Source of the DNA: Candidatus Rokuibacteriota bacterium
Lineage (GTDB): Bacteria > Methylomirabilota > Methylomirabilia > Rokubacteriales > CSP1-6
Direction of reading: 5' to 3'
DNA: 37,855 nucleotides
NCBI GenBank assembly: GCA_003220345.1
Contig: QHSC01000089.1
Coordinates: 1,790-39,644 of the forward strand
Positions 30,650 through 37,227 of this stretch are shown piece by piece. The notes under the pieces are model-generated. The model saw only the letters and a program-made list of their open reading frames with translations, searched no databases and was not told the DNA's origin. Positions within the stretch are counted from its first letter, which is position 1. Each line of letters opens with the position of its first letter. The position numbers were made by a program, and so were the translations under genes.

Positions 30650-31612
30650 ATGCTGATCAAGCGTGACCAGGACAGAAAACGGCGCGGAGAGGACATTCCG
30701 GCCTCTGAGATCACCGCGGAGCGGCTTTATCTCGACCGCCGGGCCTTCATTGCAGGCGCGGCCGCGCTGGCCCTGGCCCCGTCCCCTGTGAGAGCCGAGA
30801 ATCATCTCGCCCCGCTCAAGGCGGCCAAGAACCCGGCCTTCACGCTGCCCGATGCGCTGACCTCCTACAAGAACGTCACCTCCTACAACAACTTCTATGA
30901 GTTCGGCACCAACAAGGAGGACCCGGAGCGTCTGCAGGCTTCGCTGAAGACGCGACCGTGGACGGTCAAGGTCGAGGGGCACTGCGCCAAGCCCAAGACC
31001 TTCGACATCGAGGAGCTCCTGAAGTTCTCCCTCGAGGAGCGCGTCTACCGGCTCCGCTGCGTGGAGGCATGGTCCATGGTCATACCGTGGATCGGTTTTC
31101 CCCTGAGGGATCTGCTCAAGCGTGTGGAGCCCACGGGCCAGGCCAAGTACGTCGAGTTCACCACCCTCGTCAACCCCGACATGTTTCCCGGGCAGAAGCG
31201 GGGATTCTTCGGCTTCTCCCTCGACTGGCCCTACACGGAGGGGCTCCGGCTCGACGAGGCAATGCATCCGCTGACCCTCATGACCGTCGGGCTCTACGGC
31301 CAGGTGCTGCCGAACCAGAACGGCGCGCCGTTCCGCGTGGTGATCCCGTGGAAGTATGGCTTCAAGAGCGCGAAGTCCCTGGTGAAGATCCGCCTGACCG
31401 CCGAGGAACCCAAGACCGCCTGGAACAAGGCCGCCCCGAGCGAGTACGGCTTTTACTCGAACGTGAACCCGCAGGTCGATCATCCGCGCTGGAGCCAGGC
31501 GACGGAGCGGCGCATTCCCGAGGTGCGTCGCCGGGAGACCCTCATGTTCAACGGGTACGGCGATCAGGTCGCGTCGATGTACACGGGGATGGACCTGAAG
31601 AAGTTCTACTAG
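30650..31612 (+). CDS. msrP: Protein-methionine-sulfoxide reductase catalytic subunit MsrP
   Basis: A 320-residue periplasmic molybdopterin enzyme that repairs oxidised methionine in envelope proteins. The N-terminus has a twin-arginine signal (DRRAFIAG, R30 and R31, then a hydrophobic core, cut near VRAEN at 47-51), as expected for a cofactor-loaded Tat substrate. The Mo-ligand cysteine is C137 in [30 protein letters not shown] and the closing [10 protein letters not shown] are family hallmarks. GGAGGGAGG lies 8 nt before the ATG. A GATAAT at 30615-30620 could be its -10. The membrane partner MsrQ starts 7 nt downstream. Confidence 0.95.
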
Positions 31613-32721: not shown

Positions 32722-33519
32722 ATGGACTACGCCGACTACCAGCACCTGCTGTTCGACCGCCGTCCGAACGGTGTCGTGCTCATCACCATCAATCGCCCCG
32801 AGGTGATGAACGCCACCAACGCGCGCCTGCACTGGGAGCTGACCCAGGTATGGTTGACCATCGACGCCGACCCCGCGGCGCGTGTGGCCCTCGTGACGGG
32901 GGCGGGGCGCGCCTTCTCGGCGGGTGGGGACATCTCGCTCGTGGAGGAGATGACGACGAATCGCGAGGCGGTGGCCCGCACGTTGCGCGAGGCCGCCGAC
33001 CTCGTCTACAACATGATCAATCTCGACAAGCCGGTGATCTCCGCCATCAATGGGGTGGCCGTCGGCGCCGGCCTCGTGGTCGCCCTCCTCGCCGACGTCA
33101 GCATCATCTCCGAGACGGCCCGGTTCACCGACGGCCACACGCGCCTCGGGGTGGCTGCGGGCGATCACGCCGCCATCATCTGGCCTCTCCTCTGCGGCAT
33201 GGCCAAGGCCAAGTACTATCTCCTCACGAGCGACTTCATCGACGGCCGTGAGGCCGAACGCATCGGGCTCGTCAGCCGCTGCGTCCCCGCGGACAAGGTC
33301 ATGGAGACGGCGCTGGGCGTGGCCGAGGCGCTGGCCGGAGGCAGCCAGCACGCGATCCGGTTCACCAAGCGCGCGCTCAACAACTGGCTGCGCCAGGCCG
33401 GCCCCATCTTCGACCAGTCCCTGGCCCTCGAGATGCTGTGCTTTGGCTTCGAGGATGTGAAGGAAGGCGCCCGCGCCATACGCGAGAAGCGCGCCCCGTC
33501 CTTTCCTTCGGCGCGGTGA
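32722..33519 (+). CDS. Enoyl-CoA hydratase/isomerase family protein (crotonase)
   Basis: A 265-residue crotonase-fold enzyme. The oxyanion-hole segments are visible: AFSAGGDIS (65-72) and VAVGAGLVVALLADVSI (112-128). By alignment to the rat hydratase, both classical catalytic glutamates are replaced, by V119 and H139. The GVAAGDHAA loop instead carries D148, as in a subfamily reading AGDGG. It is therefore probably not a standard enoyl-CoA hydratase, and the reaction on its acyl-CoA is open. GGGAGG lies 6 nt before the ATG. Its stop overlaps the GTG of the TPR gene. No other beta-oxidation gene is in the window. Confidence 0.87.
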   Translation: MDYADYQHLLFDRRPNGVVLITINRPEVMNATNARLHWELTQVWLTIDADPAARVALVTGAGRAFSAGGDISLVEEMTTNREAVARTLREAADLVYNMINLDKPVISAINGVAVGAGLVVALLADVSIISETARFTDGHTRLGVAAGDHAAIIWPLLCGMAKAKYYLLTSDFIDGREAERIGLVSRCVPADKVMETALGVAEALAGGSQHAIRFTKRALNNWLRQAGPIFDQSLALEMLCFGFEDVKEGARAIREKRAPSFPSAR

Positions 33520-35093
33520 GCTTCGCGGTCGCCCTCGTCATCCTCCTTGTCGCGCCCGCCTGGGTGATGGCGCAGACGCCCGACTGGGAGAGCTTGATGA
33601 GCGCGGCCCAACGCGCCGAGGAAGGAGGGCGCCTGGGCGACGCGGAGCAGCTCTATGCCGCGGCCATCGCCAAGACGCAGGGCTTCGACGAGAAAGATCG
33701 GCGCATCGAGCAGAGCCTCACCGCGCTCGGCGACCTGCACGGCGCGCGGGGACGCTATGCCGACGCGGCGCGCTTCTACGACCGGGCCCTGACCGCGCTC
33801 GAAAAGGCGCTTCCTGCCGGCGATCCCGGGCTGGTGCCGGGATTGAATCGCCTGGGCACCATGTGGCGGCTCCAGGGACGCGCGCCCGATGCCGAGCCGC
33901 TGCACCGTCGCGCCCTCGCCATCGCCGAGAAGACGCTCGGCGCCGACGATCCGGCCGTCGCCGCATCCATGGCAAACCTCGCGGAGATCTACATGGCGCG
34001 TGCCCGCTTTGCCGAGGCGGAGCCGCTCTTCCGCGGCGCCCGGAGCATCTACGAAAAGGCGCTCGGCGCGGGCCATCCGGAGGTGGCGAAGTCGCTGGCG
34101 AGCCTGGGAACGCTCTACAAGGAGCAGGGGCGCTTCCGGGAGGCGGAGCCGCTCTATCTCCAGTCCATCGGCATCGTCGAGGGCGCCCTCGGCGCGAGCG
34201 ACGCGCAGATGGCGCTCCCGGTGGCGAGCCTGGCCGCCCTCTACGCGGCGCAAGGACGCTACCGCGAGGCCGAGCCGCTCTTCACGCGCGCGCTCGCCAT
34301 CCAGGAGAAGACCCGCGGCCCCCAGCATCCGGCGGTGTCCACCACCCTCAACGAGCTGGGGGAGCTCTATCGCGCGCAGGCGCGCTGGGCCGAGGCCGAG
34401 CCGCTCTATCGCCGGTCGCTGGCCATTCGCGAGCGGGTCTTCGGGCCGGACAGCTCGAGCGTCGCGGTGGTCTTTGCCAACCTTGGTCTGCTCGACTTCG
34501 ATCGAGGCCGCTACGCCGACGCGGAATCAGCCTTCAAGCGCGCTCTCGCCATCGACGATAGGCCACCCGGGCGCGAGCATCCCGATGTGGCGACCGACCT
34601 GAGTAACCTGGGCGATGTCTATCGCGTCCAGCGCCGCTACGCCGAGGCCGAGCCGCTGTACCGGCGGGCGCTCGGCATTCGCGAGCGCACCCTCGGCCCC
34701 GATCACGCCAAGGTGGCCACGAGCCTCAACAACCTGGCCGTGCTCTACCAGTACCAGGGCCGCTTTGCCGAGGCCGAGCCCCTCTTCCGGCGCACCCTCG
34801 GCGTCCTCGAGAGATCCTTGGGGCCTGATCACCCGAACGTGGCGTTCACCCTCAACAATCTGGCGGAGGTCTACAAGGCCCAGGGACGCTACGCGGCGGC
34901 GGTCCCCCTCTATCCGCGCGCCATCGCCATCGCGGAGAAGCGGCTGGGCCCGGATCATCCGACGCTGGCCGCGCTCCTGGACAACTACGCCGTGGTGCTC
35001 CGCGGAGCCAAGCGGGACGCCGAGGCCCTCGAGGTCGAGGAGCGTGCGCGAGACATCCGCATTCGCCACGCCCAACAAAACCCTCGGCGCTGA
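33516..35093 (+). CDS. Exported tetratricopeptide-repeat protein (kinesin-light-chain-type TPR)
   Basis: A 525-residue protein with a signal peptide (residues 1-21, hydrophobic core then VMAQT at the cut). The rest is nearly all TPR repeats of the 42-residue kinesin-light-chain type. The unit motif (A/R)EAEPLYRRAL recurs at exact 126-nt steps from 33762 to 35022, eleven times with no insertion or deletion. Between these lie GP(D/Q)HP and NNLAxLY segments typical of TPR_12. Such arrays bind peptides or partner proteins; here it would act outside the cytoplasm. GTG at 33516 overlaps the crotonase stop (GTGA). The frame is open further upstream, but only this start gives a clean signal peptide. 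Confidence 0.88.
   Translation: MSFAVALVILLVAPAWVMAQTPDWESLMSAAQRAEEGGRLGDAEQLYAAAIAKTQGFDEKDRRIEQSLTALGDLHGARGRYADAARFYDRALTALEKALPAGDPGLVPGLNRLGTMWRLQGRAPDAEPLHRRALAIAEKTLGADDPAVAASMANLAEIYMARARFAEAEPLFRGARSIYEKALGAGHPEVAKSLASLGTLYKEQGRFREAEPLYLQSIGIVEGALGASDAQMALPVASLAALYAAQGRYREAEPLFTRALAIQEKTRGPQHPAVSTTLNELGELYRAQARWAEAEPLYRRSLAIRERVFGPDSSSVAVVFANLGLLDFDRGRYADAESAFKRALAIDDRPPGREHPDVATDLSNLGDVYRVQRRYAEAEPLYRRALGIRERTLGPDHAKVATSLNNLAVLYQYQGRFAEAEPLFRRTLGVLERSLGPDHPNVAFTLNNLAEVYKAQGRYAAAVPLYPRAIAIAEKRLGPDHPTLAALLDNYAVVLRGAKRDAEALEVEERARDIRIRHAQQNPRR
33762..35021 (+). repeat. Tandem 126-bp coding repeats (10 periods)
   Basis: The codons for (D/E)AEPL recur at 33762, 33888, 34014, 34140, 34266, 34392, 34518, 34644, 34770, 34896 and 35022, each exactly 126 nt apart. 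They are diverged at the nucleotide level but share GAGGCCGAGCCGCTC-type cores, so unequal recombination could still change copy number. Confidence 0.85.
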
Positions 35094-36354: not shown

Positions 36355-37227
36355 ATGCCGAAGCTGAAGAAGCCGCGCGAAACACCGCCACCGCCTGCCC
36401 CTTCGAGGCCGGACTGGATCATCGTGGGGCTGGCCCTCGTTGGACTCGCGGTCGCCGGCTACCTGACCGCGCTCAAGCTCGGCGGCAACCAGGCTTTCCT
36501 CTGCCGCGACGGCAGCGGCTGCGACATCGTCCAGGCCAGCCGGTACTCGCTCCTGGCCGGCGTGCCCACCGCTCTCTGGGGCGCGGCGGTCTACGCCGCC
36601 ATCCTCGTCCTGAGCGTGATACCGCGGACCGTGCGGCGCTGGCAGATGGCCTTCATGCTCGCCGCGGCCGCCGTCGCCTTCTCGATCTACCTCACGTACC
36701 TGTCGGTCTTCGCGATCGGCGCCACCTGTCCGTACTGCCTCGCCTCGGGCGTCATCTCGCTCCTGCTTCTCGTCACCATGCTCGTGAGGCGGCCCGTGGC
36801 CCAGGGGAGGGCCGCCCAGGCCTATACCCTGAAGCGGCTGGCCGGGCTCGGGATCACCGCGGGAGTGGCGGCCGTGCTCGTCGGCGCCTTCATCTTCGCT
36901 GCCGATTTCTCTACGCCCGCGGGCTACCAGGTCGCCCTCGCGGAGCACCTCAAGAAGAACCAGGCGATATTCTATGGCGCCTACTGGTGACCCGCGTGCA
37001 AAGAGCAAAAGGCCCGGTTCGGGTCTGCCGCCGACCGCTTGCCGTACGTGGAGTGCAATCCACTCGGGGATCACAAGACCCTCGATGAGCGCTGCGTGAA
37101 GGCGGGTGTGCACGCCTATCCTACCTGGATGATCAACGGCCAGAAGCACGAGGGCGTCCTCCCGCTCGAGCGTCTGGCCGAGCTCTCCAAGTTCCGCTAC
37201 ACGGCTCAGGCGGGGGCCACGCAGTGA
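36355..37227 (+). CDS. VKOR-thioredoxin fusion, probable selenoprotein (Sec212 encoded by TGA)
   Basis: A 290-residue membrane thiol oxidoreductase if the TGA at 36988-36990 is read as selenocysteine. The VKOR part (about 20-185) has four or five membrane helices, the loop cysteines C50 and C56 (FLCRDGSGCDIVQ) and the active CxxC C125-C128 (ATCPYC). The thioredoxin-fold part follows: FYGAYW, then Sec212, then PAC215KEQKARFG, then C234 (YVECNP), C247 and HAYPTWMINGQ with the cis-proline. All eight redox positions, including the C234-C247 pair 13 apart, match cyanobacterial VKOR fusions as I recall them. Family members form disulfides using quinone. ATG 36355 has GAGGG upstream. Conventional calling stops at the TGA and loses 79 codons. 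Alternative: a nonsense mutation of TGC to TGA. Confidence 0.85.
36988..36990 (+). other. In-frame TGA, predicted selenocysteine codon
   Basis: The TGA lies between TGG (W211) and CCC (P213), at the first cysteine of the thioredoxin-domain CxxC, giving UPAC. The same frame continues for 78 codons with conserved thioredoxin-fold sequence before an ordinary TGA at 37225-37227. Confidence 0.82.
37010..37026 (+). promoter_or_regulatory. Candidate bacterial SECIS hairpin
   Basis: Seven base pairs: AGGCCCG (37010-37016) with CGGGTCT (37020-37026), including one G-U pair, closing a GUU loop. The loop starts 26 nt after the TGA. Position inside the coding region just downstream of UGA, and a G-U at the loop start, are the expected features of bacterial SECIS elements recognised by SelB. 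Confidence 0.65.

Follow-up and report, generated by a model that had tools for sequence, protein, structure and literature searches.

The gene at positions 36355 to 37227 (plus strand) of the window, by which we mean the whole 37,855-nucleotide stretch of DNA analyzed here, is best read, at a probability of roughly 78%, as encoding a selenocysteine-containing VKOR-thioredoxin fusion of Methylomirabilota (Rokubacteria/NC10), a thiol:quinone oxidoreductase like the cyanobacterial fusion. The UGA at codon 212 is predicted to be decoded as selenocysteine (Sec), a part of the reading that we regard as nearly certain. Computation revealed a column in which homologs hold Cys or TGA, a hairpin, the selenocysteine machinery, and selection downstream of the TGA. 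The hosts are uncultured soil and groundwater bacteria, which apparently possess a membrane enzyme of the disulfide-making kind with Sec for a key active-site cysteine.

An in-frame TGA at the first CxxC cysteine of a VKOR-thioredoxin fusion

The coding frame opens with ATG at 36355, closes with a TGA stop codon at 37225 to 37227, and translates to 290 residues with Sec at residue 212. Its N terminus, MPKLKKP, is a start common to four genomes of the window's genus. Residues 21 to 141 (36415 to 36777, plus strand) match the VKOR domain model PF07884 at 95.6 bits, with a cutoff of 27.5, and hold the loop pair C50 and C56 together with the membrane CxxC formed by C125 and C128, all four invariant in the 23 full-length rows of our alignment. 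A thioredoxin-like domain covering approximately residues 192 to 280 (36928 to 37194, plus strand) was recognized by alignment to the solved domain 3kp8 over residues 192 to 280, and it contains U212-P-A-C215, C234, C247, and YPTW. The TGA of residue 212 (36988 to 36990, plus strand) lies in the context FYGAYW-TGA-PAC, where it stands in for the leading cysteine of the thioredoxin CxxC. An earlier note on this DNA had placed the TGA at 36988 on that cysteine, with C234, C247, and a PTW strand beyond it and a normal stop at 37227; translation of the frame from ATG 36355 bore out all of these points. The Pfam matches cover the VKOR domain part of the frame, and in NCBIfam release 20.0 two VKOR models and a zinc-ribbon model matched, each below its own cutoff. 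Seven TGA-interrupted frames were listed in the window, and a Cys near the TGA was found only for the VKOR-thioredoxin frame.

The best solved match, over residues 22 to 280 with an E value of 3e-45, was the Synechococcus VKOR-thioredoxin fusion (3kp9, 4nv2, 4nv5, and 4nv6, all entries of one VKORC1/thioredoxin domain protein). An excerpt of PMC4555120 names 3KP9 as a Synechococcus protein and supports the domain makeup of VKOR fusions and a ubiquinone contact at the CxxC. Both proteins carry a YGAYW-x-P-x-C site, which is a Cys form in Synechococcus (YGAYWCPHC) and a Sec form in the window (WUPAC). Indeed, in the alignment to 4nv2 and 3kp8 the first CxxC position is occupied by TGA and not by Cys.

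Residue 212 is Cys or TGA in the homologs examined

A protein search of the window's genome and 98 others gave a match in 45 of the 99; 95 of these genomes (G000 to G094) belong to the same class or are nearer, and four (G095 to G098) lie outside it. We counted as fusion loci those in which the thioredoxin part was included, excluding VKOR-only matches and leaving out a weak partial match in G053 (residues 88 to 209, one TGA). Among the resulting 24 fusion loci from the 95 genomes of the class, residue 212 was encoded by TGA in 21, was Cys in 3 (L034, L038, and L039), and was nothing else in any. One of the 21 Sec loci, L040, is only a partial gene at the start of its contig; the other 20 were used for the codon statistics, dN/dS, and the tree. 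At the active site, the sequence is WUPAC in the Sec forms (WUPVC in L031) and WCPHC in the three Cys forms, and the seven other cysteines (residues 50, 56, 125, 128, 215, 234, and 247) were invariant in the 23 full-length rows. Two internal Sec residues were considered for L021 and L036 and rejected, the second TGA lying at the very end of the gene, beyond the conserved part.

A scan of named genomes extended the comparison. In the best 80 of 571 relatives, residue 212 was Cys in 72 and TGA in 8, and all 80 retained the seven other cysteines. Because one of two search patterns demanded a Cys codon at position 212, these counts may miss Sec forms of other phyla. The eight TGA loci come from records labeled Rokubacteria, NC10, or Methylomirabilis and are already among the 21 Sec loci of the class; likewise, one of the Cys loci, L082, is the same as L038. 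Protein searches beyond the phylum by way of G095, G098, and G097 (1, 291, and 17 genomes, respectively) returned no match and are little informative. The earlier note had held that a selenoprotein should show Cys or Sec at this position and never another residue, and only Cys or TGA occurs there in the 24 class loci and in the best 80 of 571.

A candidate SECIS hairpin marked by codon invariance

Folding placed a hairpin, which the earlier note had not mentioned and which we propose as a bacterial SECIS, at 37010 to 37026 (plus strand), with a 6-bp core at 37011 to 37025 and the loop GUU at 37017 to 37019. It starts 19 nucleotides past the TGA in the window, in keeping with the spacing of bacterial SECIS elements. 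A hairpin was folded downstream of the TGA in 21 of 21 Sec loci. The codons GCC CGG TTC GGG are identical in all 21 and differ in the Cys genes, and the codon preceding them is AAG in 20 Sec loci and CAG in one (L023). Across the 20 full-length Sec genes there are 47 conserved columns whose residue is 4- or 6-fold degenerate, and a single codon is used throughout in only three of them, A220, R221, and G223, each within the hairpin. The hairpin core is absent from all three Cys genes of the class.

When the nine residues of this region were randomly recoded with synonymous codons, every one of the 21 Sec genes folded below the mean (z of -0.75 to -2.56), compared with z values of -0.73, +0.70, and +2.29 for the Cys genes. 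Against dinucleotide shuffles, the window hairpin by itself was unremarkable (z of +0.84 and -0.46 in two runs), and therefore the codon invariance is the real evidence for the hairpin. No compensatory changes were seen in the core, because the core does not vary. In the window's genome, a hairpin likewise follows the TGA of the Sec-containing SelD gene (z of -1.75).

The selenocysteine machinery is present in the same genome

The genome that supplied the window encodes tRNA-Sec (67.9 bits, cutoff of 47), selB (338 bits, at a contig start), selA (585 bits, on a contig shared with tRNA-Sec), and selD (345 bits, with an in-frame TGA of its own), all four scoring above cutoff. This is the set that the earlier note had wanted to see in the same genome, and together with the Cys-or-TGA column it supports that note's selenoprotein reading. 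Two selD genes above cutoff are in fact present, L049 on contig C105 and L050 on contig C175; an in-frame TGA interrupts just one of them. Rfam and ARAGORN searches of the window itself found nothing.

Over the 21 Sec genomes, selB was above cutoff in 18 and tRNA-Sec was above cutoff in 18; over all 99 genomes, the numbers were 85 and 80. These figures exclude matches of approximately 190 to 200 bits that cover the beginning of the selB model and lie in frames of about 400 amino acids; such matches resemble elongation factor Tu. G070 counts as lacking selB and has tRNA-Sec; G012 lacks tRNA-Sec and has selB and selA. In two Sec genomes, G003 (locus L018, 95% complete) and G025 (L030, 81% complete), our searches found none of selA, selB, and tRNA-Sec. 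Relatives such as G001 and G002 keep selB and tRNA-Sec on one contig, a few kilobases apart, so a single piece missing from the assembly could account for this gap. A rule that genomes with the Cys form have lost the machinery was rejected, as G006, G069, and G071 retain selB and tRNA-Sec above cutoff.

Selection past the TGA and descent of the Sec form

The part of the gene after the TGA is under purifying selection. By simple Nei-Gojobori counts over 190 pairs, the median dN/dS was 0.44 before the TGA and 0.39 after it. Within the genus, dN/dS is below 1 and looser past the TGA: comparison of the window gene with L018, L019, and L020 gave 0.14, 0.32, and 0.30 before the TGA and 0.17, 0.46, and 0.53 after it, respectively.

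In a tree of 94 rows, the Cys gene L034 fell together with all 20 full-length Sec genes in one group (support of 100/95), and the Cys genes L038 and L039 grouped with an acidobacterial Cys form and deltaproteobacterial Cys forms. The Sec label needed two changes on this tree, the minimum being one, and one change sufficed in 38% of the bootstrap trees. These data fit a Sec form that arose once in the phylum, with L034 as either a reversion or a basal branch. L034 is a Cys form on a long branch in the Sec group, and its genome, G006, keeps selB and tRNA-Sec. It is a possible case of a change from Sec to Cys.

Predicted mechanism and relation to known selenoproteins

In VKOR fusions, electrons pass from the thioredoxin-like domain to the loop cysteine pair, then to the membrane CxxC, and finally to quinone. 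All of the relay cysteines are kept in the Sec protein, and therefore the same relay is the simplest reading. SelB and tRNA-Sec would decode UGA 212 as Sec, aided by the downstream hairpin. The thioredoxin domain, predicted to be periplasmic, would accept electrons from substrate thiols through a U212-C215 selenenylsulfide and would hand them to the loop pair C50/C56, from there to C125/C128, and on to the membrane quinone, the outcome being disulfides in exported proteins. U212 presumably occupies the place of the exposed attacking Cys of thioredoxin-like sites, where Sec may allow faster exchange and resistance to overoxidation. Compared with a disulfide, a selenenylsulfide usually has greater reducing strength, faster exchange, and better recovery after overoxidation, and because of this combination the gain from Sec would be kinetic or protective. 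In this scheme, the topology, the direction of electron flow, and the benefit of selenium are predictions. Judged from homology, an oxidase role is probable, and quinone-coupled thiol oxidation is the putative activity of the fusion. The earlier note had imagined that a selenol here might serve a reductive or peroxide-handling role; we found no support for that, and the conserved relay cysteines would point instead to ordinary VKOR thiol oxidation.

The Sec variant of the VKOR fusion appears to be new, Deng et al. 2026 and Haft and Tolstoy 2025 aside. A 2026 review (PMC13188914) puts the number of prokaryotic selenoprotein families and subfamilies at 119; VKOR is absent from its Table 1, and neither VKOR nor vitamin K occurs in its text. 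The same two terms are absent from the texts of PMC9312934, PMC5029168, PMC12013277, and PMC2398784, and the VKOR phylogeny of PMC4555120 contains no word beginning with "selen." None of the publications found on VKOR or vitamin K epoxide reductase and selenium is about a VKOR selenoprotein, as far as titles and the opening lines of abstracts tell. With the same two publications set aside, Table 1 of PMC13188914 agrees with the guess in the earlier note that the fusion lies outside the standard selenoprotein set.

Several catalogued thioredoxin-fold selenoproteins, namely, thioredoxin, DsbA-like form 1, DsbG-like, and a thiol:disulfide interchange protein (PMC13188914), likewise have UxxC in a thioredoxin-like domain. 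Unlike those families, none of which is named VKOR, the protein described here has that domain fused to a quinone-linked membrane oxidoreductase domain. Thioredoxin-fold selenoproteins are common, yet in the sources covered none is an enzyme that makes disulfides de novo by way of quinone, and the question raised is why a more reducing residue should be placed in an oxidase. A Methylomirabilota genome with a large selenoproteome of 63 predicted selenoprotein genes is attributed to Deng et al. 2026 in an excerpt of PMC13188914. To the Methylomirabilota selenoproteome, insofar as that excerpt portrays it, the Sec-VKOR protein would add a family linked to multiheme cytochrome clusters. Annotation under the standard code would truncate the protein at residue 211 and conceal its thioredoxin domain.

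Multiheme cytochrome genes near Sec loci of other genera

In other genera, Sec-VKOR genes lie near multiheme cytochrome genes, an arrangement that was unexpected and that the earlier note did not foresee. We took the flanks of all 24 loci, up to 8 kb per side where the contig allowed (253 kb for the 21 Sec regions), and compared them with 40 control regions from arbitrary contig numbers in 20 of the 21 Sec genomes (460 kb). To count cytochromes, we took stop-to-stop frames of either strand that contain five or more CxxCH motifs, a count that may include antisense frames. Such a frame was found in the flanks of 14 of 21 Sec loci (L134, L135, L137, L138 in G018, L139 in G072, L140 to L143, L146, L148 to L150, and L153). 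It was found at none of the 3 Cys loci and in only 2 of the 40 control regions; for this contrast Fisher's test gave a P value of 5e-7 with relatedness ignored. On the same strand, an octaheme frame ends 16 to 178 nucleotides upstream of the aligned VKOR segment in six Sec loci and a decaheme frame opens 53 to 360 nucleotides downstream of it in seven; both occur in two loci, and a close neighbor of either type is present in 11 of the 21.

At L138, the decaheme protein belongs to the DmsE family (TIGR03508) and the next gene encodes an MtrB/PioB porin (TIGR03509), both above cutoff. At L139, an MtrB/PioB porin is accompanied by a Rieske protein, a cytochrome b, NapC-like and 13-heme cytochromes, and a molybdoenzyme that matched TtrA best, though below that model's cutoff. 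At an E value of 1e-10, MtrB/PioB was found in 12 of 18 Sec genomes of the window's own family versus 3 of 39 others and, class-wide, in 15 of 21 Sec genomes versus 18 of 74 others. Selenium also occurs beside multiheme and porin systems in the ExtKL cytochrome and the GSU2204 MtrB/PioB family (PMC13188914); in those cases the cytochrome or porin itself bears Sec, whereas here the adjoining thiol oxidoreductase does. The porins near Sec-VKOR genes match the GSU2204 model below its cutoff.

Alternative explanations

TGA is a stop codon in translation table 11, and the library models detect only the VKOR part, both as they would be if the gene stopped at the TGA and made a VKOR protein of 211 residues, the remainder being decayed or a separate piece. 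We consider this very improbable, for the stretch past the TGA is kept in 21 genomes under purifying selection, C215, C234, and C247 are unchanged, and TGA stands only where other homologs carry Cys. Still less probable is a sequencing error or a TGA that specifies some other residue under a changed code. Though the draft assembly is fragmented and carries 7.27% contamination, 21 assemblies agree on the TGA, and error was rejected on that ground. A different code or read-through was rejected as well, since TGA is also the gene's own terminator and other homologs have Cys in this column; in addition, Trp 211 is TGG in the rows printed. Against decoding as Sec stand the machinery not found in 2 of 21 Sec genomes, as discussed above for G003 and G025, the failure of the window hairpin to stand out from dinucleotide shuffles, and the higher dN/dS past the TGA for two of the three congeners (0.46 versus 0.32 and 0.53 versus 0.30).

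A different kind of alternative accepts Sec and concerns what the enzyme is for. The Sec form might be a dedicated part of porin-cytochrome conduits, either handling the numerous cysteines of multiheme cytochromes during maturation or giving periplasmic thiol or selenol electrons entry into the cytochrome chain. The contrast among Sec loci, Cys loci, and controls speaks for it, as do the same-strand octaheme and decaheme neighbors, the DmsE-type decaheme protein and MtrB/PioB porin of L138 with a porin also at L139, and the porin frequency in Sec genomes of the window's own family. However, seven Sec loci are without such neighbors, including all four of the window's genus (in the window's own case the downstream flank is 0.6 kb), and its genome gave no MtrB/PioB match at an E value of 1e-10. 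Neither the window locus nor its genus nor its genome showed membership in a DmsE/MtrB porin-cytochrome cluster. The Fisher tests ignore relatedness, and nearness does not show a direct link. On balance, we think a dedicated conduit role unlikely. Equally doubtful is a broader version, in which a selenol thiol:quinone oxidase arose once in Methylomirabilota as a conduit module and the window's genus kept the enzyme for envelope folding; if true, it would link selenium supply, periplasmic disulfide chemistry, and outer-membrane electron export.

Surroundings of the window gene

In the window, the VKOR-thioredoxin gene is flanked by an opposite-strand gene of the isochorismatase family and by a rhodanese gene truncated where the contig stops. 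Approximately 5 kb upstream, a protein with a molybdopterin-binding oxidoreductase domain is encoded at 30650 to 31609 (plus strand; PF00174, 112.5 bits), and a 551-residue protein with many tetratricopeptide repeats is encoded at 33438 to 35090 (plus strand).
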